The notes under the pieces are model-generated. The model saw only the letters and a program-made list of their open reading frames with translations. It was not told where the DNA came from and ran no database searches. A stretch of 64,000 bases of DNA from Marinilabilia salmonicolor (GTDB lineage Bacteria; Bacteroidota; Bacteroidia; Bacteroidales; Marinilabiliaceae), in contig NZ_PVTS01000014.1 in assembly GCF_003003035.1 (NCBI RefSeq), positions 1-64,000 of the forward strand, given 5' to 3'. The translations under genes and the position numbers were made by a program. Of the stretch, positions 1 to 15,704 are shown piece by piece. Positions within the stretch are counted from its first letter, which is position 1, and the number at the start of each line of letters is the position of its first letter.

Positions 1-75
1 ATCCACATCACACCTGCCGAAAATTTCAAAGAACTTTTGCCGCAATTTATTGATAAAAAATTACTCCAGGAATAA
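1..75 (+). CDS. C-terminal end of a cas gene, probably cas2 (partial)
   Basis: The first 75 bases read as one open frame of 24 codons ending in TAA at 73-75; the start lies outside the window. The tail is too short to recognise a family by motif. Its position directly before a type II-C-like array, where cas1 and cas2 normally sit in Bacteroidota (cas9-cas1-cas2-array), makes Cas2 the best guess. The stop is only 15 bases from the first truncated repeat. Any other cas gene or the end of an unrelated gene remains possible. Confidence 0.4.
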   Translation: MHITPAENFKELLPQFIDKKLLQE

Positions 76-90
76 GGTTTTGCTGGGGTG

Positions 91-2084
91 GATACTTTTG
101 AAAGCAATTCACAACAGTACCGTTTTAGCCTCATTTCTCGCCGGCTGTCAGCGCTACTGCAAAGATACATTTTGAAAGCAATTCACAACGTGTAATTGTG
201 TTGAGAAACGGCGAACAGAGCTGTCAGCGCTACTGCAAAGATACATTTTGAAAGCAATTCACAACAATCAACGGTAAAACAACAGGAGTAACAATGCTGT
301 CAGCGCTACTGCAAAGATACATTTTGAAAGCAATTCACAACAAAACATCTATTTCTCCAATGTAGATAGAGGCTGTCAGCGCTACTGCAAAGATACATTT
401 TGAAAGCAATTCACAACTAAAGGAACTGAACTAATTCATTTGTAAAGCTGTCAGCGCTACTGCAAAGATACATTTTGAAAGCAATTCACAACAAAAGTCG
501 TTAGGGCTGCTTGAATATTGGGCTGTCAGCGCTACTGCAAAGATACATTTTGAAAGCAATTCACAACCACCAGTAAACTGATGTTTCGTGATTTGAAGCT
601 GTCAGCGCTACTGCAAAGATACATTTTGAAAGCAATTCACAACACCTAATCGCGCTAAATTCTCCTGAAGCTCGCTGTCAGCGCTACTGCAAAGATACAT
701 TTTGAAAGCAATTCACAACTAATACGGTTGATGCACTTTCAGTGTTTAAGCTGTCAGCGCTACTGCAAAGATACATTTTGAAAGCAATTCACAACAACTT
801 GGGTATTGCGGTCAACGTTCCAGCGCTGTCAGCGCTACTGCAAAGATACATTTTGAAAGCAATTCACAACTACATCATTAAGGCTAATTTTAAAGTCCTG
901 GCTGTCAGCGCTACTGCAAAGATACATTTTGAAAGCAATTCACAACCAACTCATATCTGTGGGCTGAAGATTTGATGCTGTCAGCGCTACTGCAAAGATA
1001 CATTTTGAAAGCAATTCACAACTCATGGGCGATGCATTGCGTCCGGCAACTTGCTGTCAGCGCTACTGCAAAGATACATTTTGAAAGCAATTCACAACAA
1101 TTAATAGCCGACAAAGAAGCTCGCAACTGCTGTCAGCGCTACTGCAAAGATACATTTTGAAAGCAATTCACAACGCACACATTTGGCAACCGGATACCCC
1201 AGGGGCTGTCAGCGCTACTGCAAAGATACATTTTGAAAGCAATTCACAACGGGCCGTTGCCAGTGCCATAAAAAAAGATGGCTGTCAGCGCTACTGCAAA
1301 GATACATTTTGAAAGCAATTCACAACCGGCACAGGCAGCGGTATAAAAAACAAAAGGCTGTCAGCGCTACTGCAAAGATACATTTTGAAAGCAATTCACA
1401 ACAGGCTTTGGGCCACTTGCAAAAACTTCTTGCTGTCAGCGCTACTGCAAAGATACATTTTGAAAGCAATTCACAACTACTGCAAATGACTTTATTATTA
1501 TGCGTGGCTGTCAGCGCTACTGCAAAGATACATTTTGAAAGCAATTCACAACACACATTGCAAACACGCCAATGAATAATTGGCTGTCAGCGCTACTGCA
1601 AAGATACATTTTGAAAGCAATTCACAACAAGAACTTGAAAAGACTCTCAAGGACTTGAGCTGTCAGCGCTACTGCAAAGATACATTTTGAAAGCAATTCA
1701 CAACCATGACCGGTTAAGGGCATAAGGGAAAGAAGCTGTCAGCGCTACTGCAAAGATACATTTTGAAAGCAATTCACAACAGGTCGGCATCTTTATCCTG
1801 AACCGTGGCGGCTGTCAGCGCTACTGCAAAGATACATTTTGAAAGCAATTCACAACACCAATTCCGTGAGTTTTGCATGAGTGTGCGCTGTCAGCGCTAC
1901 TGCAAAGATACATTTTGAAAGCAATTCACAACCAAAGCCAATCAGTATGTGACGGTGCGACAGCTGTCAGCGCTACTGCAAAGATACATTTTGAAAGCAA
2001 TTCACAACGCGAGACGGGAGAGATGCAGCACGAGAATAGCTGTCAGCGCTACTACAAAGATACATTTTGAAAGCAATTCACACA
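91..2084 (-). CRISPR. Type II-C-like CRISPR array, 25 intact 46-bp repeats, 26 spacers
   Basis: Intact repeats start at 144, 220, 296, 372, 447, 522, 598, 674, 750, 825, 901, 977, 1053, 1129, 1205, 1281, 1357, 1432, 1507, 1583, 1659, 1735, 1811, 1887 and 1963. Spacers are 30 nt (20 of them), 29 nt (5) or 28 nt (the first, 116-143). Read on the minus strand the repeat begins GTTGTGAATTGC and ends CTGACAGC, the form of Bacteroidota type II-C repeats, whose 5' half pairs with tracrRNA. The left end (91-115) keeps only that half. The right-end repeat (2039-2084) is full length but has one internal change and an altered 5' end. Minus-strand transcription therefore fits best, running towards the cas gene. 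The array and the cas gene would then be convergent. No tracrRNA or cas9 lies in the window. Confidence 0.97.
1963..2008 (-). promoter_or_regulatory. Promoter-like element inside each CRISPR repeat (representative copy)
   Basis: On the minus strand repeat positions 23-30 read TATCTTTG, an exact match to the Bacteroidota -7 box TAnnTTTG. Positions 1-4 read GTTG, a possible -33 box (consensus TTTG), 18 nt upstream. A start site would fall in the last ten bases of the repeat, just before the spacer. The same element occurs in all 25 intact repeats. Its function as a promoter is inference; in Neisseria type II-C arrays repeat-borne promoters are established. Confidence 0.45.
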
Positions 2085-2144
2085 GGTTAAAATTAGTAGT
2101 GAAACCGTTTCCACCTTACTTCAAGGCTGTTTCATCGCAGACCA

Positions 2145-2178
2145 CAAAAAAAGGCTCCACTTGCGTGAAGCCTTTTTG
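2145..2178 (-). terminator. Rho-independent terminator after the GH10 gene
   Basis: AAAAAGGCT pairs with AGCCTTTTT around a 12-nt loop, and on the minus strand the stem runs into a T7 tract. It lies between the GH10 stop and the CRISPR array, so it should stop xylanase transcription before it enters the array. The A/T flanks make it partly bidirectional. Confidence 0.8.
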
Positions 2179-2196
2179 ATGTTACTTTCCTTATTT

Positions 2197-3258
2197 TTAT
2201 TTCGATGTTTTCAGGCCTTTTATAAATCCGTAATAGGCCGGTTTGGGATTCATGTTTTCGTCATAGATACATGGCCAGTCATTCAGGTCAAAGAATGACG
2301 GAATCCAGGAGTGTTTGTCGCTAAATCCCCACACGGTCATTCCATAACGTTGTTGTTTCGGGACATTCCGAATGTATGCTTCTGCCAGCCATTGGTATTT
2401 GTCAGCCTGAGCCTGAAGCATTTCTTCGGTCAGTTCGTCGTAAATTTGTATTCCGCCACCGGGGGTGTCGTCATGTTTATTGAAAATAATGTCAATCTCG
2501 GAAAGATGAATCTGCAAGCCGGTTTCTGCTGCTTTTTTGAGTGCGTATTCGATGGTTTTTTCGTCTGTATCCATGCGGATATGCATTTGGAAGCCGATTC
2601 CGGAGATGGGTACATTCTGAGCTCTTAGTTTTTCTATCATGCGCAGCATAGAGTGCAGTTTCACAGTGTCCCGCTCAATATTGAAATCATTGTAAAAAAG
2701 GACTGCCCCAGGGTCTGCCTTATGTGCCAGTTCAAAGGCCCGGGCAATGTAACCTTCACCCATGGTTTTGTACCAAATAGATTTTCTGAATTCTCCTGTG
2801 CTGTCGAGCAGCGCTTCATTGACGACATCCCAGCCGGCCACTTTCCCCTGGTATCGTTTGCCGTAGGTGAGAATGTAATCTTCCATGATTTTGTCGAGGG
2901 CAGTACTATCCGGTTCCATCTCATTGATCCATCGGGGAGTTCCTGAATGCCAGATGAAAGCATGTCCGTGAAGTCGGATGTTGTTTTGTTGTGCATAATG
3001 GACCACATCATCCACATGTTTCCAGTTGTATTCATTTTCTGAGTGATGAACAGCATACATTTTCATGCCATTTTCGAGGGTGATGCTGTTAAAATCCTTT
3101 TTAACAATTGCTTGTATGGAACTGTCTTTAACCAGTTGGTGAGCCCTGATAGCTGTTCCAATCGGGAATGAAGCACTGTCTTTCAGGTTTGAGGAGGGGT
3201 GGGGTGTTTGACAGCCCATTAGAATAAATGCGGGCAGAAGAAGCAAAAGTTTTTTCAT
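2197..3258 (-). CDS. Endo-1,4-beta-xylanase, GH10 lipoprotein
   Basis: A 353-residue secreted endo-xylanase that cleaves the beta-1,4-xylose backbone of xylan. It has a lipoprotein signal peptide with Cys16 in the lipobox (LMGC), so it is membrane anchored, probably on the cell surface. GH10 landmarks are HGHAFIWHSGTPRW (98-110), the acid/base Glu148 in WDVVNEA, the nucleophile Glu254 in HLSEIDI, and the C-terminal TVWGFSDKHSW. Length fits a single GH10 barrel with no carbohydrate-binding module. The start codon abuts the end of a dispersed palindromic repeat (see 3258-3396), so its leader is unusual. It is monocistronic and has its own terminator. Confidence 0.95.
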   Translation of the reverse strand: MKKLLLLLPAFILMGCQTPHPSSNLKDSASFPIGTAIRAHQLVKDSSIQAIVKKDFNSITLENGMKMYAVHHSENEYNWKHVDDVVHYAQQNNIRLHGHAFIWHSGTPRWINEMEPDSTALDKIMEDYILTYGKRYQGKVAGWDVVNEALLDSTGEFRKSIWYKTMGEGYIARAFELAHKADPGAVLFYNDFNIERDTVKLHSMLRMIEKLRAQNVPISGIGFQMHIRMDTDEKTIEYALKKAAETGLQIHLSEIDIIFNKHDDTPGGGIQIYDELTEEMLQAQADKYQWLAEAYIRNVPKQQRYGMTVWGFSDKHSWIPSFFDLNDWPCIYDENMNPKPAYYGFIKGLKTSK

Positions 3259-3396
3259 CCGTTTAAAATTTTGTAATTATGTGATAAAGAACTAATTAAA
3301 AATTTGAGAACGAATGGAACCGCTTCGCTCTCGCATAATATTTTTTAAACAGGTTCTCTTGTGATTTATTTTTAAAAAATATCATGCTCGTTTCAT
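3258..3396 (-). repeat. Dispersed palindromic element abutting the GH10 start codon
   Basis: On the minus strand this runs from ATGAAACGAGCATG through a long A/T stem, then the GTTCCATTCG arm and about 50 further bases, to the base before the xylanase ATG. A nearly identical copy lies at 12331-12474 in the plus direction. The two diverge outside the element at the ATGAAACGAG end. See the finding on this repeat family. Confidence 0.8.
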
Positions 3397-3785
3397 TAGT
3401 TTATGGTTTATCTAAGTTGTTGGTGTGGTGTAGTTTATGTTGAAAATTTGGGTTTGATTCATCAATAATCGCATTGGTAAGAATTAGATTTTTTGGCGGA
3501 AGGGTAAAGTGCGTACATTTAGTACGGAAAAAAAGCAAATGGGTTTTCTATTTTTTATTATTGTTAAGAGATTTTCGGCGCTTTTGTTTTGAAGTCCGGG
3601 ATCTTATTCAAATGTCGGTGGAAAATTGCCTTCCTGGTGAGTTGGGTTTTTGAAAATACATTTGACTTCGTCAGGATTTTTTTACGAAGTAATTATTTAA
3701 GTGATACTAATTTGCTATTTTCGGTTTACCTAATTCCCAGTCTGCTTTGTTTATTATATCCTGAATTAAAACAATATTTGCGATT
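3397..3785. other. Intergenic region upstream of the GH10 gene and the broken hydrolase
   Basis: A 390-bp A/T-rich divergent spacer. The only clear structure is an inverted repeat, CGTAC-ATTTA-GTACG, at 3512-3526, a possible operator. No protein or RNA gene could be supported; a 66-codon frame starting with TTG at 3589 lacks coding character. Confidence 0.5.
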
Positions 3786-4437
3786 ATGAGAATTCTGGTT
3801 TTCCTTGGTTTAGCTCTTCTTTTTTTTCTCCTGTAGCAGAACAAGTAACGGACATCTTAGCTTTTATGATGCAAGTGCGGAAGATGGTTATAATTATCCC
3901 TTTTTCTTGTTTCTTCCTGATGGGATATCTGCTGAAAAGCAGTTGACATTGATTTTAGAACCCAACAATTCAGGGTTTTCTGCATCAGGAACCTTTGCCA
4001 ACAGGTTTACGGCATTGCATCCGGATAAAGTAAAGGCTGTAGCTGCGGGGGGTATTAACGGACTTCTGATCTTACCTTGCGACTCACTGCAGAATGTTGC
4101 ACTTCCTTATCCATTGGGCGTCAGTGATATGGAGTTTCTGATAGATGTGGGTTTCCAGAAATCTGCTTTTGCAGTCACACCACAATTTCTTTTTATGGGA
4201 GCATTGGATGACAACGATGCTATCCCCTATGAAGACGGGTATAGCATTCAGGAAAGAGAGCAGGTCTTTCAGTTGCTGGGCAAACAAATGATGCCGGACA
4301 GATGGGAGAACTGTATTGAAATATACCAACAACAGGGAGTGAATGCTGTTTTTAAAACTTACCAGGGCATCGGGCATGAACAAACTCCGGAGATAAAAGA
4401 TGAAATACTGGCTTTTTTCAAAGACAAGATGGAGTAA
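3786..4437 (+). pseudogene. Alpha/beta-hydrolase-like lipoprotein, frameshifted and internally deleted
   Basis: The ATG at 3786 starts a typical lipoprotein signal peptide, but the frame stops at TAG 3834-3836. Removing one T from the T8 tract at 3820-3827 restores MRILVFLGLALLFFSC, a good lipobox, and joins the long downstream frame to its stop at 4435-4437. The downstream part carries a serine-hydrolase nucleophile elbow (GFSASG), an Asp-rich turn (GALDDND) and a late His (GIGHEQ), as expected for an alpha/beta-hydrolase. The first strand region (LILEPNNSG) is followed immediately by GFSASG, leaving no room for the usual 80-100 residues between them. An in-frame internal deletion is therefore inferred. 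Two independent lesions point to a decaying gene rather than a sequencing slip. Confidence 0.7.
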
Positions 4438-4453
4438 TTTTATTACACATTTT

Positions 4454-5620
4454 CTACAATATCAGAAACTCTTTAAGATCCGATTGCAAAATATCTTCCA
4501 GCAGTTTCCTGTTTTTGTAACTTGTCCTCGCAAATTGAAACGCAAAAACTCCATGTTTTTTGTAATCAATCTTACGCAGTTCCAGTGGATCTTCAAAGTA
4601 TGTACGGAACTTCTCGTAATCTATCTCTTTTATATTATCAGCAGGTATGTCCTTAGGTAAATCCGCAACCACCATGCTGTAGATATCATCGTTTTTATCT
4701 TTCAAAATGGCTTCCCAGTCGGGCTGTTTTTGCTCAAAGAAATATTCATAGACATTTATTCCGAAGGCGTACCAGGCAATGTCGGTGACGCACCATCCGG
4801 CAAAACGCATGGGGTTTACTTCAATAGGAATTATATGATTGTTTGAATCTACTCTGAACTCAATGTGCATGGGGAAACCACGTAACTCAATGAGGTCTCC
4901 CATTTTGCTCAGAAACTGTGTGAATGATTCAAGGTGCTCCTCAATAATTTGTTTGGAGGTAATGTAAACCCTGTCGCTTACGTCCTCTGCAGAAGAGAAA
5001 AGATGCTTCAGGATGTTCAGAACAACAGGTTCTCCGTTTCTGTCGTAATAGACATCTACGGCAAATTCATCTCCCGGGATAATTTCTTCAAGTATGAAAT
5101 TGGAGACATTGATCACTTCGCCCGGGAAATTGTGTCCCAGGGAACCGATTTCAGCTTTCAGCTTAGCCACCACTTTCCCCCATTCTTCAGGATTGTTTAC
5201 CACATGCACTCCAATGCTGAAGAAACCAACAGAAGGTTTGATGATGAAAGGGAAGGGAAGTGCCTGTGAAGATAACTGGTCTAATTGATCGAATGAGACT
5301 TCTTTAAAGAAAAAATCAGGATACATAGACTTAATGCGTTCTCTGAAACGTGCTTTGTTTTTAAAAATCAAAATAAGTTCAGGAAGTCGTGTGAAACCCA
5401 GATTTTGAGTTATCCATTCGATTGAGTTCTCTGAGTTGGTATAAAGCAAAGGGACCTTTTGGTTTCTAATGGCTTTTGTGAAAGCTTCGTCGTTCAGAAG
5501 TTGAAGATCTTTTCTGCTCGTTAGCTCTTCGGCTGCAATGTTGTTTAGCACCCCATAGTTGTTTTGAGCGATGGTGTCCTCAAGTATTTGAGAAACATAT
5601 GGATGGTCGAGTATAATCAT
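4454..5620 (-). CDS. ATP-grasp domain protein
   Basis: A 388-residue cytoplasmic protein with no signal peptide. The central region resembles the ATP-grasp fold of carboxylate-amine/thiol ligases: PFPFIIKPSVGFFSIGV (nucleotide-binding lysine and glycine loop, about 120-140), ILEEIIPGDEFAVDVYY (about 175-192) and HIEFRVDSNNHIIPIEVNPMRF (metal-binding Glu/Asn, about 255-275). The N-terminal 110 residues look like a pre-ATP-grasp domain. Substrate is not predictable, since there is no partner biosynthetic gene beside it. It converges with the broken hydrolase (16-bp gap) and is preceded by an exact -7 box. Confidence 0.8.
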   Translation of the reverse strand: MIILDHPYVSQILEDTIAQNNYGVLNNIAAEELTSRKDLQLLNDEAFTKAIRNQKVPLLYTNSENSIEWITQNLGFTRLPELILIFKNKARFRERIKSMYPDFFFKEVSFDQLDQLSSQALPFPFIIKPSVGFFSIGVHVVNNPEEWGKVVAKLKAEIGSLGHNFPGEVINVSNFILEEIIPGDEFAVDVYYDRNGEPVVLNILKHLFSSAEDVSDRVYITSKQIIEEHLESFTQFLSKMGDLIELRGFPMHIEFRVDSNNHIIPIEVNPMRFAGWCVTDIAWYAFGINVYEYFFEQKQPDWEAILKDKNDDIYSMVVADLPKDIPADNIKEIDYEKFRTYFEDPLELRKIDYKKHGVFAFQFARTSYKNRKLLEDILQSDLKEFLIL

Positions 5621-5643
5621 CTTTGTATTTTTTTATCGTGAGT

Positions 5644-5651
5644 CAAAGATA
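5644..5651 (-). promoter_or_regulatory. -7 promoter box of the ATP-grasp gene
   Basis: The minus strand reads TATCTTTG, an exact Bacteroidota -7 box (TAnnTTTG), 23 bases before the start codon. No clear -33 TTTG is visible at the expected spacing, so only half of the promoter is supported. Confidence 0.5.
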
Positions 5652-6072
5652 GATGCTAACCTGATTAATTCATAAATTATCTATTGCGATACTCTATTGC
5701 CGTCATAATTTACTAATCCTCAGTGAAAATAGATTACTATTTTCTTTTTCAAGTTTGCTTGCAGTTTCTTGGATCTTTGGGTATTTATGACCATTCCACA
5801 ACGAAAATCTGTGAATAAAGGTAGGAAAAATGGATTATTGGGGATAATGTTGTTTATTTCTCGTTAGAGAAAATGGAACATAAAATTGTTTAATATTTTT
5901 TTATTCTCTTATCTTAAGTTTTTTCCCGGATTGAGGAGGATTGTTGTTACTTTTTTTATGTTGTTATGTGTTTGATTAATTGACATTTCAGATTGGAATG
6001 TTTAGTTTTATGGTGGTAAAACAAAACGAGAGGCAAATATTGCCGGAAATTTTAACCCAAAAACCCAAAGTT
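5652..6072. other. Intergenic spacer between divergent genes
   Basis: About 420 bp of A/T-rich sequence between the ATP-grasp gene and the T9SS-secreted protein. No ORF, hairpin or complete promoter could be supported for the plus-strand gene. Confidence 0.5.
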
Positions 6073-6906
6073 ATGAATTTTTCTTACCCGACTTGTCGAA
6101 TTATCTCCTTGTGTTTTTCACTGTTTGTAATTTTTTCTCCCTCTTTTTCTCAGACTTTAATTGATTTTGATGACGATGCGAAATGGATACGCGGATCTAG
6201 TACCATTACCGGTTATGCCACTGATCACGCTTATGAGGATGGTCTTTTTCGTGCAACCGGTGGCGAGGCATGCCGAATTACTGCAAGTGATCAGGATGGT
6301 GTGCCAGGAGCACTGGGAAATTATGCCTGGAAACTTAAAGATGTGACAGCTGTTGACTGGCGGATTACGATTGCGTCAGGAGGTGTGGGAAATTTCAGTA
6401 TGAAAATCAGACGCTGGGATGAAGATCCCGAACCACATTACCAGTTGGCGTATTCCACCGACGGAGGTAGTACGTGGGAAGAGGTGGCTCAGGTAACCAA
6501 TGAAACACTTGATAATTTGAGCGAATGGAAGGCATTTGGTGGAACCATCAACAGCAGTAACGATAACATAACCATCAGACTGACACCCACTCAGGGAACG
6601 GAACGTATCATGGTTGATGATTTTGAGTGGACTTCCTATGTGGCCAATAGCCATAACTCTCCCGATGCTATGCGTTTGCAATTATGGCCTAATCCTGCCT
6701 CTGAGATGATCTATGGAGAGGGAGAGGAAAGACTGGAATTTGTGGAGCTGATAAATATGGCAGGAACAAAAGTAAAGGAAAAACAACTGTCCGGGGATAA
6801 AGGATTTTCTATCGCTGTAGATGACCTTAAAGATGGAGTTTACTTTGTTAGGATGACAGATATTGCCGGAAGGAAAACATGTACCCGGGTTTTTATCCTG
6901 CATTAA
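6073..6906 (+). CDS. T9SS type A sorting-domain secreted protein
   Basis: 277 residues from the ATG at 6073, chosen over an upstream in-frame ATG at 5980 because a signal peptide (MNFSYPTCRIISLCFSLFVIF, about 27 residues, ending SFSQ) starts there. The mature N-terminal part is a beta-rich module of unknown substrate, reminiscent of domains that precede T9SS tails (YSTDGGSTWEEVAQV, IRLTPTQG). The last 75 residues are a Por-secretion sorting domain: LQLWPNPASEMI at its start, then VELINMAGTKV, DLKDGVYFVRM and a final basic/hydrophobic strand. The protein should cross the outer membrane by T9SS and be surface attached or released. No function can be assigned to the cargo domain. Confidence 0.85.
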   Translation: MNFSYPTCRIISLCFSLFVIFSPSFSQTLIDFDDDAKWIRGSSTITGYATDHAYEDGLFRATGGEACRITASDQDGVPGALGNYAWKLKDVTAVDWRITIASGGVGNFSMKIRRWDEDPEPHYQLAYSTDGGSTWEEVAQVTNETLDNLSEWKAFGGTINSSNDNITIRLTPTQGTERIMVDDFEWTSYVANSHNSPDAMRLQLWPNPASEMIYGEGEERLEFVELINMAGTKVKEKQLSGDKGFSIAVDDLKDGVYFVRMTDIAGRKTCTRVFILH

Positions 6907-6915
6907 CAGATGAGG

Positions 6916-6958
6916 TATTCCCGGGTAAAATCCTTGAAATTTGCCCGGGAATATTTTT
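6916..6958 (+). terminator. Terminator after the T9SS protein
   Basis: TATTCCCGGGTAAA pairs with TTTGCCCGGGAATA, followed by TTTTT. It lies between convergent genes, and its T-run overlaps the first bases beyond the larE stop. Confidence 0.8.
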
Positions 6959-7805
6959 ACTGTGTCCTTTCTTCTGAGTTGTTTTGATCTTTGAAGAGCA
7001 CTCTGTTCAGTTTGCCTGAAACAAGACCTTCTTCATCGGCCAGGGCGTCAGAGAATCCTATTTTTTGTAACGATGGCGTGAGTTTTGGTAAAATCTCTTT
7101 TAATCTGGTAATTTCATTTGCAGGCACTTCAATACTGACTTCTCCTGTGCGGTATCGTGCTCTCACGTCAGAAAAACCATGTTGGTTGATTAGTGCTTCA
7201 GCATTTTCAACCATTTTCAGTTTTTTTATGGAAATGCTTTCGCCGTAAGGAAATCGGCTGCTCAAGCATGGACTGGCTGGTTTGCTCCATTCCTTCAGAT
7301 TGAAGTGTTTTGCCATTGCCCTGATATCCTCTTTTTCAAAGCCACAATCTGCAAGTGGACTAAGCACACGATATTGGTCAGCAGCTTTCAGCCCCGGTCG
7401 GTAATCTCCTAAATCACTTTTGTTGCTTCCATTAATAATTGTATAGTCGGGAAACTGGTCTTCTTTTAGGCTCTTCATTGCCGTGTAAAGAGAGTTTTTG
7501 CACCAAAAACATCTGTCCTCCGGGTTTGAATTGTATCGGGGGTCATTTATTTCTCCTGGCTTTATAATTTGATAATTGATATCATGCACGGTACAAAAGT
7601 CAATTGCCTGCTGCAGATCTCTGCGCTTAAGTGCCGGTGAGTCTCCGATAACTGCCATAGTTTTTTCCTTTCCCAGAAAATGACGACTAAGAAATGCCGC
7701 AAGGCAAGAGTCAACCCCACCTGACAGGGCAACCAGAGCTCCCTGATGATGTGTAAACCATTTCTTTGTTTTTTCGTATAGCTCTGTATTGAGAGAGTTT
7801 GCCAT
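6957..7805 (-). CDS. larE: LarE-type sulfur transferase (PP-loop)
   Basis: 282 residues, cytoplasmic. LarE adenylates and sulfurates pyridinium-dicarboxylate mononucleotide in synthesis of the nickel-pincer cofactor of lactate racemase-type enzymes. The PP-loop ATP motif SGGVDS is at 28-33; GSNKSDLGDYRPG (126-138) and PCLSSRFPYGE (179-189) are family signatures. Cys180 matches the position of the sulfur-donating cysteine. The protein also has Cys99 and Cys102 in DRCFWCK, giving three candidate cluster ligands as in LarE forms that carry a [4Fe-4S] cluster. No larA, larB or larC is adjacent, so it is an orphan here. No promoter was recognised. Confidence 0.9.
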   Translation of the reverse strand: MANSLNTELYEKTKKWFTHHQGALVALSGGVDSCLAAFLSRHFLGKEKTMAVIGDSPALKRRDLQQAIDFCTVHDINYQIIKPGEINDPRYNSNPEDRCFWCKNSLYTAMKSLKEDQFPDYTIINGSNKSDLGDYRPGLKAADQYRVLSPLADCGFEKEDIRAMAKHFNLKEWSKPASPCLSSRFPYGESISIKKLKMVENAEALINQHGFSDVRARYRTGEVSIEVPANEITRLKEILPKLTPSLQKIGFSDALADEEGLVSGKLNRVLFKDQNNSEERTQ

Positions 7806-8029
7806 AGCTCGTTGTATTTTTTAGTTATGCTATTAAACCGGTAGGAAAAGTAAAGGAAAAATATCAAAGTTCCATGGGATTGGTTTATTAATTGTTTTTA
7901 TTTTGGCCTTTTTTATGGTATTATATGAGTAGGTAGGATATTTGAAATGGCCGGATATGCCCGCAAGAGGAAATTAGAAAAAGTGTTATAAATTTTAATC
8001 AAACAGAATATTAAATAAATCTTAATAGG

Positions 8030-8836
8030 ATGAATATCAGAAATTTTAAACTATTTACTGCGACCCTGATTTTATCAGCATTAACACTTTCCTGTGAAGA
8101 GGGAAAAATCAATTTGTTTACCGTAAGTCAGGATGTGGAATTTGGGGAGCAGATGACTCAGGAGATTCTATCCAGTCCTTCCGAATATCCGATTTTGAGC
8201 AGACAGGAATATCCTGAAGCTTATGACTATCTCGAAGGCATGCGTGATAAACTGCTTGCTACCGGAGAAATTAAATATGCTGATGAATTTGCCTGGGATA
8301 TTTATATTATTGACCAGAATGTTCTAAATGCATTTGCCGTTCCAGGTGGCACTACTTTTTATTATACCGGATTGATTAAGTTTCTGGAGGACGAAGCTTC
8401 CCTGGCCGGAGTGATGGCTCATGAATTTGCCCATGCCGATAAGCGGCATTCCACCAACAGGATGACCAAAATGTACGGAGTTCAAACATTGTTGTCGGTG
8501 ATTGCCGGGGAGGAGACTACTGTGGTGGAGAATTTACTTCTTCAGTTGGGCGGAAAGGGTACAGAATTGTTTTTCAGTCGTGATGATGAATATGAGGCCG
8601 ATGAGTCAGCAGTCAGGTATCTTTATAAAACCACGTGGGATGCCAGAGGTGTGGCTCATTTTTTCGAAAAGATAGGAACCGAAGCCGACAATTCCGATTG
8701 GATGGTCTATTTTCAGACGCACCCCAATCCCGAAGACCGTGTACAGAAAATTTATGAACATCATGAGAATTTGGGAGGCAAGGACGGTGATCTCTTTGGG
8801 AGCAGATATCAGGAGCTGAAGAACAGTTTGCCTTAA
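8030..8836 (+). CDS. M48 family zinc metalloprotease, lipoprotein
   Basis: 268 residues with a lipoprotein signal peptide (lipobox TLSC, Cys22). The zinc motif HEFAH is at 131-135, and the third ligand is Glu187 in the conserved SRDDEYEAD block. It therefore belongs to the BepA/LoiP-like periplasmic M48 group, which act in envelope protein quality control. It lacks the TPR domain of BepA. The C-terminus has the typical THPNPEDRV motif. It is monocistronic, with a terminator immediately downstream. Confidence 0.93.
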   Translation: MNIRNFKLFTATLILSALTLSCEEGKINLFTVSQDVEFGEQMTQEILSSPSEYPILSRQEYPEAYDYLEGMRDKLLATGEIKYADEFAWDIYIIDQNVLNAFAVPGGTTFYYTGLIKFLEDEASLAGVMAHEFAHADKRHSTNRMTKMYGVQTLLSVIAGEETTVVENLLLQLGGKGTELFFSRDDEYEADESAVRYLYKTTWDARGVAHFFEKIGTEADNSDWMVYFQTHPNPEDRVQKIYEHHENLGGKDGDLFGSRYQELKNSLP

Positions 8837-8879
8837 TACAATAGCTTGTTTTTTTTAATTGTGCATACGTTTGCATTGC

Positions 8880-8922
8880 GGAAAGACCATTGGTGTATTT
8901 ATTGCATTATTGGTCTTTTTTG
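8880..8922 (+). terminator. Terminator after the M48 gene
   Basis: AAAGACCA and TGGTCTTT form the stem of a hairpin with a long loop, ending in TTTTTTG. Confidence 0.75.
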
Positions 8923-9285
8923 TTTGTAGTCAGTGTATTGTAATAGGAAGGGGCGGAGAAATCGGACATTAAAAAAGGGCTGCCGGTAGAACCGACAACC
9001 CTTTAACCTTAACCCTAACCCGATACAAATATAAGTCATTGTTAGAGATCGTGCAAAATATTTCATGTTTTTTTTGCAAAAAAAAGTTGCTCATCAAAGG
9101 AGGAAGGTGTTAACTGCTTAATTGTGTGTTTTTTTGAATCTAAATTAATTTTACTGCGTAATATTGTTTTTAGATTCTCTGTGATTTATCTTTTTCAAAC
9201 AATTTTCATTGTTAGTTTTGTGAGTTTTCATGTAAAAAAAAAAGAGAATCCGGCCTTGACCGGTCTTAGCATATAATTTTTTAGA
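8923..9285 (+). other. Intergenic region with a second hairpin and a -7 box for the histidine kinase
   Basis: A second imperfect hairpin lies at 8973-9004 (AAAGGG-TG-CGGT with ACCG-CA-CCCTTT, two C/A mismatches), followed by a TTAACCC/TAACCC tract. It may be an attenuator or an extra terminator. An exact -7 box, TAGTTTTG, is at 9213-9220, about 65 bases before the kinase start; no convincing -33 TTTG is present. Confidence 0.45.
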
Positions 9286-11238
9286 ATGGGTTATACAGGT
9301 TTTTCTGTTTCATTAATGTCTTTGGTAAATGCTCTGGTGCAATTGGAATCCGGAGACGAAATTGTTGACGGTTTGCTCAATGGTCTTGAAGATTTGGTCG
9401 GAAAGAAAAATTGTTGGAGTTGTTCTTTAGTGACACTCGAAGAAATGAACTTTCATCAAAGTGATCAGGAGAATGGCAGGGCCGGAGGTGAGAATAATAT
9501 TGGCAGACTTAACAAGGGAAGCAACCTTACCAATTATTATTTTAATTTTCAGGATGGAAACTTCATACATCTTGGGGTCTCAACTGCTCTTTCTGACAAG
9601 AAAAAATGCTTAATTCAATTATCGGTTGATACCATCTCCACTGTTTTAGCTATGAAGCAAAAAGTAGAATCTCCTAATGATATTGATTACGCTTCAGAGA
9701 AATCAAATGAAACAGTTCAGCAGTTGCAAAAAGAAATCAAGCGACGAAAGAGATATGAGACGAGATTGGAGGAGAGTGAGAAACGAAATGTTATGATTCT
9801 GGATAACAGCATGGATGCGATCTTGCTGACCAGTCCGTCGGGAGAAATTTTTTCTGCTAATAATAGTGCATGCCACTTGTTTGGAATGACAGAAGCAGAG
9901 ATTATCTCCCGAGGCAGAAGTGGATTGGTTGACCCCGGTGACCCGAGGTTGGCTGAAATGTTGGAAAGAAGAGATAAAAAGGGAAATGTAAAGGGAGAAT
10001 TGTTCTTTTTGCGTAAGGATGGCTCACGATTTGAAGGAGATTTGTCCTCATCGGTTTTCCTGAATGAGCATGGGGAACCCAGAAGCAGTATGATTATCCG
10101 TGATGTAACGCATCAGAAAAAGATCGAATCGCAATTATTGCTTTTGGGACATTCTGTCGAGCAGAGCCCTTTGAGCATCGTGATAACAGACCTTCAGGGA
10201 GAAATAAAATATGTCAATAAAGCTTTTACAAAAATAACAGGTTTTGAAAAGGAGGAAGCATTGGGACAAACCATGAGTATTGTGGATTCAGGTTTGCAGT
10301 GTCCTCACTTTCTGGATGAATCGTGGCAATCGGTGCTGGACGGGAATGAATGGACAGGGGAGTTGAAGAATAAACGAAAAACCGGTGAGTTGTACTGGGA
10401 ATATATCAAGATTTCTCCCGTTCGCCAGGCCTCAGGCGAAATCACTCATGTGGTATCCATCAGAGAGGATATCACTGAAAAGAAAAAGATGATTGATGAC
10501 CTGATAATTGCCAAAGAAAAAGCTGAGGAGAGTGACCGTTTAAAAACAGCTTTTCTTGCCAATGTCAGTCATGAAATTCGTACTCCGATGAATGGTATTC
10601 TGGGCTTTATGGAGTTGCTTAAAATGCCAGGACTCGGCGATGAGGAAAAGGATTCCTACATTGATATGGTGAATAGTAGTGGTGATCGGCTTTTAAAAAC
10701 GATCAATGATCTGATAGAGATTTCAAAAATTGAGTCAGGACAAGTTTGTGCGGAATATTCGCAGGTAGATATACGGGAAATAATGAATTATGCCCTTCGG
10801 TTCTTTACTCCTCAGGCACAGGATAAAAAGCTGGGATTAAGAATTTCCGAAATGCCGGAGCCCCCTAAGAATATGGTTTTTACCGATCGAACAAAGGTGG
10901 AGGCTGCTCTTTCGAACTTAATCTTCAATGCGATAAAATTTACCAATTGCGGGGAGGTTATTTTTGGCAGTTATATGGACGCTGAAAATATGGTCTTTTA
11001 CGTGAAGGATACCGGTGTGGGAATTGCTCCGGATCAAATGGACGCCGTATTTGACCGTTTTGTGCAGGCCGATTTGAATATGACCAAACCTTACCAGGGA
11101 ACAGGACTGGGATTGTCCATCATAAGGGGTTATATTACTCACCTGAAGGGGAAAATATGGGTGGAATCAGAAGTGGGAAAAGGAAGTGTCTTTTATTTTT
11201 CTATTCCTTGTCGGTCTCCCCAAAGCGGTATGAAATAA
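9286..11238 (+). CDS. Soluble PAS-PAS sensor histidine kinase
   Basis: 650 residues with no signal peptide or membrane segment, so it is a cytoplasmic sensor. Order: an unassigned N-terminal domain (1-125, possibly GAF-like), a short coiled coil (140-165), PAS1 (about 168-280), PAS2 with PAC (about 285-400), HisKA with the phosphorylated His429 in FLANVSHEIRTPMNG, and HATPase_c with the N box (NLIFNAIKFT), G1 (DTGVGIAP) and G2 (GTGLGLSI). There is no receiver domain in the protein; a stand-alone receiver is encoded 36 bp downstream and is the likely partner. The signal is unknown. Confidence 0.9.
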   Translation: MGYTGFSVSLMSLVNALVQLESGDEIVDGLLNGLEDLVGKKNCWSCSLVTLEEMNFHQSDQENGRAGGENNIGRLNKGSNLTNYYFNFQDGNFIHLGVSTALSDKKKCLIQLSVDTISTVLAMKQKVESPNDIDYASEKSNETVQQLQKEIKRRKRYETRLEESEKRNVMILDNSMDAILLTSPSGEIFSANNSACHLFGMTEAEIISRGRSGLVDPGDPRLAEMLERRDKKGNVKGELFFLRKDGSRFEGDLSSSVFLNEHGEPRSSMIIRDVTHQKKIESQLLLLGHSVEQSPLSIVITDLQGEIKYVNKAFTKITGFEKEEALGQTMSIVDSGLQCPHFLDESWQSVLDGNEWTGELKNKRKTGELYWEYIKISPVRQASGEITHVVSIREDITEKKKMIDDLIIAKEKAEESDRLKTAFLANVSHEIRTPMNGILGFMELLKMPGLGDEEKDSYIDMVNSSGDRLLKTINDLIEISKIESGQVCAEYSQVDIREIMNYALRFFTPQAQDKKLGLRISEMPEPPKNMVFTDRTKVEAALSNLIFNAIKFTNCGEVIFGSYMDAENMVFYVKDTGVGIAPDQMDAVFDRFVQADLNMTKPYQGTGLGLSIIRGYITHLKGKIWVESEVGKGSVFYFSIPCRSPQSGMK

Positions 11239-11274
11239 AGATTAATCAAACCTTAACAAATAAATGATAGACAA

Positions 11275-11658
11275 ATGCACACTTCAACAAGAAAAAAATC
11301 ATCGGGAATCATTCTTCTTGCAGAGGATGACAAACTGAGCGTATCCTATTTTAAAGCAGTCCTTTCCAGTGAAGGGTTTGACGTCATTCATGTGGACAAT
11401 GGGATTGATGCTGTTGAGAAAGTACGCAGCAACCCTGAGCTGAGTCTGGTGCTTATGGATATAAAAATGCCCCAAAAAAGCGGAGTTGAAGCCGCCAGGG
11501 AAATTCGCAGCTTCAATACCGCCCTTCCGCTCATTGCCCAAACTGCTTTTGCTTTGGCAGGTGATAAAGAAACCATTTTGGGTGCGGGATTTAATGCCTA
11601 CATAACCAAACCTGTCAGTCGGGAAGATCTATTAGATATGGTGAAACGATTTTTATAA
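11275..11658 (+). CDS. Single-domain CheY-like response regulator
   Basis: 127 residues, only a receiver domain: acidic pair Asp18/Asp19, phospho-acceptor Asp62 (VLMDIKMP), Thr90 and Lys112 (TKPVS). No output domain is present, so it may act as a phosphotransfer intermediate or by protein-protein contact. It lies 36 bp behind the PAS histidine kinase, almost certainly as one transcription unit. Such detached receivers commonly replace the fused receiver of hybrid kinases. Confidence 0.9.
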   Translation: MHTSTRKKSSGIILLAEDDKLSVSYFKAVLSSEGFDVIHVDNGIDAVEKVRSNPELSLVLMDIKMPQKSGVEAAREIRSFNTALPLIAQTAFALAGDKETILGAGFNAYITKPVSREDLLDMVKRFL

Positions 11659-11747
11659 TAAAGTAATTGGTGTTTTCTCTTCGAAACCGGAAAGATCTTT
11701 CAAACTTTGTGTTGAAATTTCAATTGCTGAGCCGCTCGGCTATTTTG

Positions 11748-12135
11748 AGTCTGTCCATTAAGTCACGTTTGTTTCCCCGAGGGCTCGGGGCAGGTTGTTA
11801 TGCCATTCCCGAAAAGTACTCATTTACTATGGGAAACTCCGCATTTTTGGGGATGCCAGGCCTTGCAAACCCAACATTCTGAACCGACACAGCTCCAATT
11901 GCCATTTTTCCCGACTTTATTGACGGGCACTATTTAGTGTCTGTAGGGAATGTTCCACTTGCTGCATTTCGACTGGCTCAATGTAACACGTTACGCTTGC
12001 CGTCAAACAGGTATTTGCCTTGGTGAAATGGGCCTTTGGCCCCACCGGAGAAAAATAGTGGCAGGCTTTACAATTGGCATCTTCTGATCCGACATATATC
12101 TAAAAATAAACTTTGTTAAGTTTATAGACAGGTTC
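11748..12135 (+). mobile_element. Degenerate MITE-like or IS-remnant element, about 390 bp
   Basis: The left end (AGTCTGTCCATTAAG) and right end (TAAGTTTATAGACAGGTTC) are imperfect terminal inverted repeats that resemble the ends of the 196-197-bp elements at 25181 and 39243. Flanking sequences are TATTTTG (11741-11747) and TATTTCG (12136-12142), a possible 7-bp target duplication with one mismatch. The interior differs from the smaller elements and carries no credible transposase; short frames in it lack coding character. Confidence 0.45.
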
Positions 12136-12242
12136 TATTTCGTTCCGGGCATCCCTTCCGTGTTTTTATTTTTTTGTCCACTCTTTGTGTTTTGTTATTC
12201 AATATGAGTTGTGATTAATTTAAAATCCCGGCTTTTATTCTA

Positions 12243-12317
12243 TTGAAACAAGCATGGCAAGGGATTCCACAAGATAATATGTATAAGTTTCTGCATTCGA
12301 GTTTCATCCGACCTTGA
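12243..12317 (+). repeat. Palindromic repeat family, diverged copy C
   Basis: This 75-bp unit aligns with the copies at 42159 and 42252. The arms TTGAAAC and GTTTCATCCG can pair. It also keeps an uninterrupted 24-codon frame (TTG start, TGA at 12315-12317) whose peptide ends NMYKFLHSSFIRP, similar to the other copies. Confidence 0.65.
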
Positions 12318-12330
12318 AAAGTTAATTTTA

Positions 12331-12474
12331 AACGAATGAAACGAGCATGATATTTTTTAAGCATAAATATCACAAAAGAATATGTTTAAAAAATATTATG
12401 CGAGAGCGAAGCGGTTCCATTCGTTCTCAAATTTTTAATTAGTTTTTTATCAGATGATTACAAAATTTTAAACG
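12331..12474 (+). repeat. Palindromic repeat family, copy D (long stem)
   Basis: ATGAAACGAGCATGATATTT pairs with a downstream arm that includes AAATATTATGCGAG and GTTCCATTCG, making a long bulged hairpin (12332-12424), followed by about 50 bp of A/T-rich sequence. It is flanked by the direct repeat ATTTTAAACGAATGAAA (starting at 12326 and at 12465). It is nearly identical, in inverted orientation, to the sequence before the GH10 gene (3258-3396). Confidence 0.8.
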
Positions 12475-12481
12475 AATGAAA

Positions 12482-12716
12482 TATTGTTTCCGGATAAAGC
12501 TACTTATTGCTTGATTATCAGGTATTTGTTATTGTGTGACGTATTAAAGAAGTCTCCTCTACCTGTGTTTGATGTAACTAAGATGTAACGCTTTTCTTTT
12601 AAGGGGAGGCGAGATGATTTTACTTCGCTTTTACAATTTTAAGAGTTGTTCACAATTGAGGGAGCAACAATTATTCATTTGTAAATAAAGGTTTGTGTTA
12701 CATTAACTATTTAACC
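12482..12716 (+). promoter_or_regulatory. Leader region of PUL1
   Basis: About 235 bp between the palindromic repeats and susC. It presumably holds the PUL1 promoter, but no clean TAnnTTTG box is present, which would fit an activator-dependent promoter. Short inverted pieces (TCCTCTACCT with AGGGGAGG) can form a weak hairpin. Confidence 0.3.
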
Positions 12717-15704
12717 ATGAAAAAAGCGAAGTTATTTAAAGGTAATTTATTCCGGAGTTTTCTCCTGTTGAGTTGTCTTTTCTTTTCCCTGCAACAGTTA
12801 ACTGCACAGGAATTGCCTGTCACGGGAACAATTACCGACGGAATGGGAGATCCATTGCCGGGTGCATCAGTAGTCATTAAGGGAACTACCAGCGGAACTA
12901 TTACCGACATTGATGGTAACTACTCATTGGAAGTGCCGTCAGATGCCGTTCTTGTTTATTCTTTTATAGGGATGAAGACTACTGAAGTTAATGTTGATGG
13001 CCAAAGCGTCATTGATATTCAGATGAAGGAGAATATTGCCACCCTTGATGAGTTGGTAGTTATTGGTTATGGTTCTGTTAAAAGAAAAGACGTAACCACT
13101 TCCATTTCCAGTGTTTCAACAAAAGAATTAGAGAAAAAGCCTATTACCAATGTTGCACAGGCAATCCAGGGGCGTGCTGCCGGGGTTTCCGTGATGAAAC
13201 CCAGCGGATCTCCCGATGCCGGAATGGTGGTGCGGGTTCGTGGTACGACCTCTCTTAACGGAAACAACGATCCGTTGTACGTGGTGGATGGAGTGCCCAT
13301 GACAGACATTGCTTATCTAAACCCCAATGATATTGAGAGCATGCAGATTCTGAAGGATGCTTCATCTGCAGCTATTTACGGGTCAAGAGCCGCAAATGGT
13401 GTTGTAATGATCAGCACCAAGTCAGGTAAAGAAGGTGTAGCTAAAATTACTTTCAACGGACACGTGGGTGTTACCGATCTGACCAATACAATCGACCCAT
13501 TGAATGTTGATCAGTATCGTGAGTTGATTGAAGATATTGGTTTAAATATGAATCTTCCTGAAAATCTCACTGATCGTACCGACTGGTATGATGAGACCTA
13601 CCAGACGGCACTGACTCAAAACTATCAGATGTCAGTAACCAATGGAGATGAGAAAATGAACTATTACCTCTCAGGTGGATATAGTAAGGAAGACGGTGTT
13701 ATTGAAGTTTCCTTTTTCGAGAGATATAATTTTAAAGCCAACATTGAAAATGAAATTCGTTCCTGGTTAAAAGTGGGAGCAAATGTTTCCTATTCCGATT
13801 ATACAGGAAACGGCATCATTTCCGGAGCAGGTTCCAATCGGGCCGGAGTGGTTTTGTCAGTGATTAATACTCCCACATATGCGCCGGTTTGGAGTGAAGA
13901 AAATCCCGGGCAGTATTACAATAACTTTTACGGTGCCAACATCACCCACCCTGTGAACAATATGTCCCGAAGTGAAGATAATCAGACCAACACTCAGCGT
14001 CTGATTGCTACCGGTAATGCAATGATTACCTTCACTGATGATTTGAACTTTAAATCAACCGTGACACTGGATCGCACCTACACGCATCAGGTCTCTTTTC
14101 TGGATCCTTTGAAAACAGCCTGGGGAAGGTCTCAGCATGGTGAAGCCGGTGATAATCGTTCACTGGGAACTGTTATGGTTTTTGATAATGTGCTGAACTA
14201 TAACAAATCTTTGAACAGGCATGATTTTGACCTTATGCTCGGTAGCTCGGGAACCACTTCTATGTGGTCACAAAGCTATCAGACCGTTTCGCATTTTCGT
14301 GATGGCAGCATAAAAACCCTGAATGCCGGAAATAAAGTTTTGCAAGGCAATGGAACTGTGGCCGCCGATTGGGCTATTATGTCTTATTTTGGCCGCCTTG
14401 GATACAATTTTGATGATAAATATCTTATGACCATGAATATGCGTGCAGATGGTTCTTCCAAACTGCACCCCGATCACCGCTGGGGGTATTTCCCATCTGT
14501 ATCCGGTGCATGGAGAGTCTCTTCCGAATCTTTTATGGATGATGTCAGCTGGCTGGATGACTTTAAAATCCGTGGTGGCTGGGGTCAAACGGGTAACCAG
14601 TCCGGTTTGGGCGATTATGCTTACTTACAGCGTTACAACATTAATCGTCAGAACTGGTGGGGTGAGGATGCTGATCCTAATGCTTTGGTTACTTTGCGTC
14701 AGTCTAATCTGAGAAATACCGATCTTACCTGGGAAACTACCACTCAAACAAACGTTGGTTTGGATCTTACAGTATTAAGAAGTCGTCTGACTTTGAATAT
14801 GGACTGGTATCACAAAAAAACCACTGACATGTTAATGACTGTTAGTCTGCCGGCCGGTTCTGCTGCAGCCAGTACCATTATGCGCAATGAGGGGGAAATG
14901 ACCAATACAGGGTTTGAGTTTACACTGAGCTCACGTAACATTAGACGAGGCGATTTTTCGTGGGATACGGATTTTAATATCTCTTTTAACCGGAATGAGC
15001 TGACAGCGCTGGAGTTGACAAAGGTTTATACTTATGCCAAAACCAGTGACCACATTGATGAACAAGTTGTTCGAAACGAGCCCGGACGTCCCCTCGGAGG
15101 TTTCTATGGTTACATCAGCGATGGAGTGGATCCTGAAACCGGGGATATGATTTATCGCGACTTAACCGGTGATGGCGTTGTGAATTCATCAGACCGGACT
15201 TACATCGGAGATCCCAATCCTGATTTCACCTACGGTATGACCAACACTGTTTCGTATAAAGGATTGTCATTGAATATCCTGCTTCAGGGAAGCTATGGAA
15301 ACGATATTTTCAATGCATCCAGAATGGAGACTGAAGGGATGTTTGATGCCAAAAATCAATCCACTGCAGTGTTGGATCGCTGGAGAATTCCCGGACAGAT
15401 TACCGATATGCCCAGAGCCGGATATAACATTAAAAACTCATCCTATTTTGTTGAAGACGGAAGTTATCTGAGAATAAAAGATGTAACCCTCTCGTATGAG
15501 TTTGATGGAGGAGTTATTGAGCGATGGGGGATTTCACGCCTTCAACCTTATGTGTCTGCTTCCAATCTGTTGACCATTACAGATTATTCAGGGATGGATC
15601 CGGAAGTAAACCAATGGGGAAACAGTGGTGCCGTCCAGGGAATTGACTGGGGATCTTACCCTCAAACCAGATCATTTGTGTTTGGAGTAAATGTTGAATT
15701 TTAA
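12717..15704 (+). CDS. SusC/RagA-like TonB-dependent outer-membrane transporter (PUL1)
   Basis: 995 residues from the ATG at 12717, preferred over an in-frame ATG 24 bp upstream because MKKAKLFKGN begins a normal signal peptide ending LTAQ. Order: carboxypeptidase-regulatory-like beta domain (about 30-105; PVTGTITDGMGDPLPGASV), TonB box region (DELVVIGYG), plug (about 115-235; VAQAIQGRAAGV, DPLYVVDGVPM, NGVVMISTKSG) and a 22-strand barrel ending in a final aromatic strand (FVFGVNVEF). It imports oligosaccharides with the SusD encoded 12 bp downstream. It lacks an STN domain, so it is not sigma-linked; the SusR-like protein at 20336 is the likely regulator. Confidence 0.95.
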   Translation: MKKAKLFKGNLFRSFLLLSCLFFSLQQLTAQELPVTGTITDGMGDPLPGASVVIKGTTSGTITDIDGNYSLEVPSDAVLVYSFIGMKTTEVNVDGQSVIDIQMKENIATLDELVVIGYGSVKRKDVTTSISSVSTKELEKKPITNVAQAIQGRAAGVSVMKPSGSPDAGMVVRVRGTTSLNGNNDPLYVVDGVPMTDIAYLNPNDIESMQILKDASSAAIYGSRAANGVVMISTKSGKEGVAKITFNGHVGVTDLTNTIDPLNVDQYRELIEDIGLNMNLPENLTDRTDWYDETYQTALTQNYQMSVTNGDEKMNYYLSGGYSKEDGVIEVSFFERYNFKANIENEIRSWLKVGANVSYSDYTGNGIISGAGSNRAGVVLSVINTPTYAPVWSEENPGQYYNNFYGANITHPVNNMSRSEDNQTNTQRLIATGNAMITFTDDLNFKSTVTLDRTYTHQVSFLDPLKTAWGRSQHGEAGDNRSLGTVMVFDNVLNYNKSLNRHDFDLMLGSSGTTSMWSQSYQTVSHFRDGSIKTLNAGNKVLQGNGTVAADWAIMSYFGRLGYNFDDKYLMTMNMRADGSSKLHPDHRWGYFPSVSGAWRVSSESFMDDVSWLDDFKIRGGWGQTGNQSGLGDYAYLQRYNINRQNWWGEDADPNALVTLRQSNLRNTDLTWETTTQTNVGLDLTVLRSRLTLNMDWYHKKTTDMLMTVSLPAGSAAASTIMRNEGEMTNTGFEFTLSSRNIRRGDFSWDTDFNISFNRNELTALELTKVYTYAKTSDHIDEQVVRNEPGRPLGGFYGYISDGVDPETGDMIYRDLTGDGVVNSSDRTYIGDPNPDFTYGMTNTVSYKGLSLNILLQGSYGNDIFNASRMETEGMFDAKNQSTAVLDRWRIPGQITDMPRAGYNIKNSSYFVEDGSYLRIKDVTLSYEFDGGVIERWGISRLQPYVSASNLLTITDYSGMDPEVNQWGNSGAVQGIDWGSYPQTRSFVFGVNVEF

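Follow-up and report, generated by a model that had tools for sequence, protein, structure and literature searches.

Repeats of a type II-C CRISPR array in Marinilabilia salmonicolor probably carry a Bacteroidota-type promoter

The CRISPR array at the start of contig C14 (NZ_PVTS01000014.1) of Marinilabilia salmonicolor raises the question of whether each of its repeats holds a promoter of its own, written in the promoter code of the phylum. Promoters of the Bacteroidota primary sigma factor, recognizable by TAnnTTTG or TTTG, have been described for genes and sRNAs in a species that, according to the excerpts of that study, has no annotated CRISPR array (PMC7366714). In the 64,000-nt stretch analysed here (positions 1 to 64,000 of the contig; hereafter the window), the same sequence recurs inside the array: TATCTTTG occupies repeat positions 23–30 of the crRNA strand in 26 of 26 full copies. 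The original prediction had placed it there, on the minus strand, in all 25 intact repeats; this is exact, and the degenerate end copy can be added. Comparative sequence analysis makes it likely that every repeat of this type II-C array holds a promoter for the Bacteroidota primary sigma factor. The 25 exact repeats follow each other at start-to-start distances of 75 or 76 nt, so that the spacers between them are 29 or 30 nt long. The features are collected in Table 1; Rfam gave no match within window positions 1–15000.

Table 1. Features of the array and its surroundings in the window
Feature	Position	Strand	Remark
End of the multi-copy insertion sequence splitting the array	1–95		Ends contig C14
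Trailer-side part of type II-C CRISPR array	96–2084	minus (crRNA strand)	25 intact repeats, a degenerate end repeat and a half repeat
Half repeat (repeat positions 1–20), cut by the insertion sequence	96–115	minus	3' of the last spacer in the window (116–143)
25 exact 46-nt repeats	144–2008 (144–189, 220–265, ... 1963–2008)	minus	
Predicted transcription start region, lowest intact repeat (positions 35–37)	153–155	minus	Predicted from the tracrRNA box-to-duplex distance; same in every repeat
TATCTTTG boxes 1–9 of 26	160–167, 236–243, 312–319, 388–395, 463–470, 538–545, 614–621, 690–697, 766–773	minus	
TATCTTTG boxes 10–18 of 26	841–848, 917–924, 993–1000, 1069–1076, 1145–1152, 1221–1228, 1297–1304, 1373–1380, 1448–1455	minus	
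TATCTTTG boxes 19–26 of 26	1523–1530, 1599–1606, 1675–1682, 1751–1758, 1827–1834, 1903–1910, 1979–1986, 2055–2062	minus	
GTTG of the lowest intact repeat, possible -33 element (weak)	186–189	minus	Also inside the tracrRNA-pairing region; same place in 25/25 intact repeats
Oldest (trailer-end) repeat, 3 mismatches	2039–2084	minus	Changed at positions 1–2 and at position 31 just past the box; box intact
Terminator-like hairpin, 13-bp stem then T run, crRNA sense	2148–2177	minus	Between xylanase-like gene and array

The array does not end at the window edge, as had been implied, but continues on contig C5, where nine intact repeats are followed by a tenth that is interrupted by the same insertion sequence. 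TTTTGAAA (window 96–103) is repeated across the insertion on C5 as an 8-bp target duplication, the element sitting inside a CRISPR repeat (on the L029 side from about 9913). Further copies of the insertion sequence end lie mostly at the ends of other contigs. Given the continuation on C5, with the cas genes and the leader found there, the two contigs share a single array of about 36 repeats, whose trailer part is in the window. The order on C5 is cas9, a REP-transposase-like ORF, cas1 (NMENI type), cas2, a leader of about 108 bp and the array; TIGR01865, TIGR03639 (cas1_NMENI) and TIGR01573 score above cut-off, and no further free-standing ORF of at least 80 aa lies between cas9 and the array at this locus. 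The ORF directly after cas9 (L029 7042–7584) resembles REP-associated tyrosine transposases, below the curated cut-off. A tracrRNA lies upstream of cas9 on the opposite strand; its anti-repeat (L029 3156–3177) pairs with repeat positions 2–24, hairpins lie downstream, and in front of it stands TTTTG-N20-TAAACTTG, which departs from the consensus by one letter. The anti-repeat pairing sets the crRNA strand, which runs towards cas2 and the leader, with the degenerate repeat at the crRNA 5' end. Judged from cas9, cas1 and cas2, the tracrRNA anti-repeat and the array polarity, all of which fit, this is a type II-C CRISPR-Cas array.

Because its 26 copies are not independent and amount to one observation, the box in this array alone is only suggestive. 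TAnnTTTG appears on the crRNA strand in 4.2% of dinucleotide shuffles of the repeat, and together with a TTG 18–21 nt upstream in 0.3%; the window as a whole is not enriched in the motif (70 found against 60.6 ± 7.7 expected). It is the comparative evidence from the repeats of other loci that lifts the box above chance.

A first set of repeats was drawn from two sources. A search for Cas9 in 392 genomes of the phylum found it in 68, our own included, and loci were fetched from 65 of the 67 other positive genomes (G021 and G380, with no place listed, were left out); 80 public-genome loci, the best 80 of 579 confirmed matches, were added. The 146 loci were searched for arrays, 36 being at first without an accepted one. 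One 26-nt consensus (L156) was dropped, L173 was re-oriented by hand and added, and L101 and L166 were re-oriented, which yielded 113 repeat consensuses in 33 clusters at 80% identity. The locus L133, titled as a Leptospiraceae MAG, encodes a Cas9 about 50% identical to our own and is perhaps a mis-binned contig; the other kept matches are titled Bacteroidota or unassigned. Patterns were searched from repeat position 17 to the end, using 15 masks of six letters in eight. TAnnTTTG emerged as the commonest tail pattern, exact in 10 of the 33 clusters (0.95 ± 0.99 in 500 shuffles, largest 5) and within one mismatch in 24 (shuffles 10.2 ± 2.6), and it was found on the reverse strand of the repeat tails in none of the 33.

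A second sample came from the class, where Cas9 was present in 118 of 396 genomes. Eighty regions were fetched, 75 of them new and five duplicating set 1; the regions left out belonged to genomes already fetched or, in some cases, had weak, broken or unlisted places. Together with three Bacteroidota plasmids this made 78 loci, 32 without an accepted array, and 46 distinct repeats; L228, L253 and L284 were re-oriented, and a repeat-like array at L277 was rejected by the 5'-end rule. As 14 of the 19 clusters have a relative in set 1, the sample is only partly independent. TAnnTTTG was exact in 23 of the 46 repeats and within one mismatch in 41, and among the five clusters without a set-1 relative these numbers were two and four. 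Here TAnnTTTG (8 of 19 clusters) came behind ATnnTTGA (10), with which it overlaps. In the combined 147 distinct Cas9-locus repeats (40 clusters) TAnnTTTG was first, with 14 clusters, and ATnnTTGA second, with 12.

The exact box is present in only 59 of these 147 repeats. Long repeats (43–52 nt) contain it exactly in 53 of 112 cases and within one mismatch in 105, short ones (30–37 nt) in 6 and 17 of 35, the remaining 18 being further off. The two-box form TTG-N18-21-TAnnTTTG occurs in repeats of 11 of the 40 clusters (shuffle mean 0.2, largest 2). Shared descent plays a large part, since nn is TC in 47 of the 59 exact boxes; A is the commonest base after the box. Site differences were counted between related long repeats of the same length, arranged in disjoint pairs with only one member selected for the box, replacing an earlier contrast in which both had been selected, and 35 of 44 pairs were usable. 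The fixed box letters differed at 9 of 210 sites, nn at 10 of 70, the bases after the box at 102 of 372 and the linker at 45 of 244 (fixed letters against nn, p = 0.01; against the region after the box, p = 2e-13). In the earlier contrast, with both members box-selected, the third T was about as variable as nn, differing in 6 of 38 pairs. The original prediction had called for a check that the box be conserved while neighbouring bases vary; run across Bacteroidota repeats, this check was passed, the fixed letters changing least, and the conservation supports the idea of a Bacteroidota -7 box in crRNA orientation that follows the logic of Neisseria II-C arrays. Single-copy variants inside arrays (21 variants, 100 arrays) gave no depletion at the box (5/600 against 6/1552).

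Some repeats depart from this pattern. GATCTTTG replaces TATCTTTG at L249, L255, L260, L072, L079 and L080, as if the first T were dispensable. Bacteroidota 36-nt repeats such as those of L086, L091 and L118, which end GATATT or TAGATT, are without the box and have TTTG at positions 8–11; with the end hexamer 19 nt later, this is a possible different promoter layout. For 36-nt repeats ending TAnnTT we considered a box straddling the repeat end and rejected it, as the TG spacer starts that it predicts were not seen (31 against 40 expected, 613 spacers). After long repeats, 99 of 1874 spacers start with TG (118.5 expected). Spacers that follow short repeats ending in neither TAnnTT nor GATATT begin with TG more often (44 against 26.5 expected, 354 spacers).

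The tracrRNA genes of the same loci are, by their upstream sequences, a positive control for TAnnTTTG as a promoter box. An anti-repeat followed by the usual core could be assigned to 78 of 113 set-1 repeats and 27 of 48 second-sample repeats. Exact TAnnTTTG lies in 48 of the 77 distinct set-1 tracrRNA upstreams (next pattern 25; reverse strand 3); 34 of 49 boxes end 2–5 nt before the first paired base, and a TTG stands at a gap of 19–20 in 22 of 39. The second sample agrees, with the box in 13 of 25 upstreams, all 13 ending 2–5 nt before the duplex and 11 of 13 with TTG at a gap of 18–21. Should transcription of the tracrRNA begin with the first paired base, an equal offset would put the crRNA start at about repeat position 35–37. 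The predicted start thus lies about 9–12 nt before the spacer, and not at the spacer or in the last bases of the repeat, where it had been placed at first.

The upstream element of the repeat promoter is doubtful. Compared with sigma(ABfr) promoters, the repeat has the -7 box TAnnTTTG and a GTTG at gap 18 that is confounded with tracrRNA pairing. This GTTG, at repeat positions 1–4, does sit 18 nt upstream of the box in the 25 intact repeats, as originally described (the end copy at 2039–2084 reads TGTG), but as a -33 box it is a weak candidate: TTG would be kept anyway by tracrRNA pairing, the gap deviates from the preferred one, and the element is not re-created in flanks. Upstream of ORFs in these loci the TTG lies at gap 19–20 from the box in 54 of 287 cases and at gap 18 in 6. 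In the flanks of 25 shortened end repeats no -33 element was re-created at gap 19–20 (two at gap 18, two at gap 21). In the ORF-upstream ranking by strand asymmetry TAnnTTTG came 137th (279 regions against 233 on the other strand); judged from its top patterns this ranking seemed dominated by the tracrRNA core, and only the TTG spacing was used. With reference to part of a published johnsoniae passage, the -33 element may be unimportant.

The alternative that survives best, although we consider it unlikely, is that the box letters are kept for another reason, such as repeat recognition by Cas1–Cas2 or a contact of Cas9 or RNA, and that their likeness to a promoter is incidental. Spacer integration requires repeat signals, which favours the Cas1–Cas2 version, and a box with nn mostly TC, followed most often by A, is more than a plain TAnnTTTG promoter requires. 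Against this, the top tail pattern of the unbiased search in set 1 was the phylum's own promoter box, with its two free positions in the right place. The location of the constrained letters also matters, as TAnnTTTG adjoins the tracrRNA-pairing part of the repeat, just beyond it on the crRNA strand. Among set-1 repeats with the box at up to one mismatch, the duplex ends in box letters 1–4 in 46 of 67, before the box in 11 and beyond it in 10; in the second sample this happens in 18 of 25, 6 and 1, respectively. TTTG therefore lies mostly outside the crRNA:tracrRNA duplex and is kept for some reason other than pairing, which speaks against this alternative.

The oldest repeat, which is neither the integration site nor a guide-pairing site, also argues against these other reasons, since it tends to keep the box and lose its 5' half. 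It is often shortened from the 5' side. Scored by suffix, which replaced a first table biased by a 60% identity threshold, 37 of 44 shortened end repeats of the long, box-bearing type break at the box or 5' of it; breakpoints spread evenly across the detectable range would give 26.7 (p = 0.0007). Among these 44 rows are a small number of copies that are interior or carry indels, or that come from a second array at the same locus. A stricter recount, with six doubtful rows dropped by hand, all of them box-kept, gave 31 of 38, where 23.1 would be expected (p = 0.005). Within what the shortened repeats retain, mismatches fall on 2 of 222 fixed box sites and on 21 of 572 sites after the box (p = 0.035). 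The end copy of L162 has TAAATTTG where the consensus has TATCTTTG, and at L187 the flank of the end repeat supplies a box-like TATATTTA; the box is lost or damaged in the shortened end repeats of L141, L127, L211 and one array of L100.

Repeats from other phyla point the same way. In a set of Cas9 loci on 15 non-Bacteroidota plasmids, eight were without an array of at least three repeats. The seven distinct other-phylum repeats, a small sample oriented by the repeat 5' end only and of subtype not established, have TAnnTTTG in the tail in none of seven cases and end TAnnnT in all seven (TATAAT twice, TACAAT twice). These ends fit a sigma70 -10 box at the repeat end, and such sigma70-like ends in place of TAnnTTTG speak against another role for the letters.

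Less probable still is one long precursor, transcribed from an outside promoter in the trailer or leader and cut by RNase III, with the boxes weak or silent. In the excerpts consulted, leader transcription is called usual in most CRISPR types (PMC8092290) and upstream transcription can enter II-C arrays (Feussner et al., PMC12080349); the trailer of our array contains TAATTTTA, a box with one mismatch, at 2088–2095 on the minus strand, which would support such a promoter. The two-box form TTG-N18-21-TAnnTTTG is nevertheless at shuffle level outside the arrays: in crRNA sense it occurs in 2 of 122 trailer-side stretches (shuffles 1.0), with no enrichment, and towards the array in none of 158 leader-side stretches within 110 nt (shuffles 0.9) and in one within 200 nt (1.6), these trailer and leader stretches possibly including a few from arrays split by the run rule. 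Among tracrRNA upstreams it is present in 28 of 77 and 10 of 25. Because the same rule detects tracrRNA promoters, a regular outside promoter should have shown, while imperfect boxes would escape. A read-in transcript is further opposed by the terminator-like hairpin just upstream of our array (fold of 2085–2200, minus strand, -30.6 kcal/mol, z -3.0), which would shield the array from read-through, and the insertion sequence would break any single long transcript. The 158 leader-side stretches are also depleted of TAnnTTTG itself, with 4 against 16.8 expected towards the array and 8 against 22.2 in crRNA sense.

That one AT-rich repeat came by the box through chance and was then copied 26 times, as the frequency of the motif in shuffles of that repeat and its commonness in the window might suggest, is highly improbable unless the sampled repeats owe the box only to recent descent: it is conserved across clusters, also in the second sample, and its fixed positions change less than its free ones.

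How does the proposed repeat promoter compare with known systems? In Neisseria meningitidis a sigma70 -10 box lies at the very end of a 36-nt repeat, and transcription starts inside the spacer. As proposed for our array, a promoter is assigned to each repeat and acquisition takes place at the last repeat; in Neisseria, RNase III processing is reported to be dispensable, according to excerpts of PMC5052741 and PMC13187072. Unlike in Neisseria, the Bacteroidota -7 box is in the middle of a 46-nt repeat, with the predicted start about 10 nt before the spacer. Closer to our organism, the II-C arrays of Flavobacterium columnare and F. psychrophilum belong to the same phylum and have the same polarity, and a repeat-encoded promoter has already been proposed for them with RNA-seq support, including eight array reads in F. 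columnare (PMC8092290, PMC10309648). Published RNA-seq shows that an IS-split II-C array of F. psychrophilum is transcribed in both its parts (PMC10309648). In the excerpted parts of these two papers the only motif given for the proposed promoters is a TTG (-33), 33 or 35 bp upstream of the spacer; no -7 box in the repeat is pointed out, and TAnnTTTG is assigned to cas9.

Parts of Feussner et al. 2025 (PMC12080349) describe extra (oldest) II-C repeats that mutate mainly in their first 15 nt and terminators upstream of II-C arrays, and suggest a need to keep the promoter; the strings Bacteroid- and Flavobacter- are absent from its main text, and the excerpts do not link the part that is retained with a -7 element. 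For Riemerella, the excerpt of PMC5006608 reports no promoter in the repeats, perhaps because general promoter predictors miss the Bacteroidota code. We found no description of TAnnTTTG inside II-C repeats in a search that had most subscription papers and preprints outside its reach and that a differently written consensus would escape. What appears new is TAnnTTTG in II-C repeats, II-C repeat promoters themselves being established outside the phylum; of the novelty claimed at the outset, the Bacteroidota -7 box stands, while repeat promoters as such had been proposed for Flavobacterium in the papers cited above.

With a promoter in every repeat, as we favour, RNA polymerase would start about 5–7 nt past the box, and the primary crRNA would comprise about 10 nt of the repeat 3' end, the 29–30-nt spacer and the next repeat, whose first ~24 nt would pair with the tracrRNA. 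The tracrRNA would be made from its own -7 promoter, its start coinciding with the first paired base. The repeat would have three uses, with its 5' half pairing with the tracrRNA, its middle acting as promoter and the repeat at the leader end serving as integration site, and transcription would proceed from the trailer towards the leader and cas2. Since every repeat would have a promoter, both pieces of the IS-split array would stay expressible.

More tentatively, and with somewhat less than even confidence, we propose that the repeat promoters of Cas9 systems follow the sigma code of the host phylum, that both guide RNAs are primary transcripts with starts tied to their duplex, that a longer repeat shifts the start, and that arrays crossing between phyla are silent until rewritten. 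TAnnnT at the repeat end in the sampled Pseudomonadota, Bdellovibrionota, Fusobacteriota and Bacillota would then correspond to TAnnTTTG inside a Bacteroidota repeat about 10 nt longer; the tracrRNA would start at the first paired base, and the -7 box of the repeat would mark the end of the duplex. With a longer repeat, the start would fall before the spacer, so that guides keep the whole 30-nt spacer.

A promoter of this kind would bring the repeat-promoter layout of Neisseria and Campylobacter into a phylum whose promoter code differs. It names the exact element for mutation, predicts start sites of both guide RNAs that are checkable in existing RNA-seq data, and would account for possible expression of both halves of an array interrupted by an insertion sequence. 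It may also offer a reason for many Bacteroidota repeats being 46–47 nt and not 36 nt long. If the dependence on the host's code is true, an array that enters another phylum would stay silent as long as its repeats were not rewritten, which would act as a barrier to cross-phylum spread.
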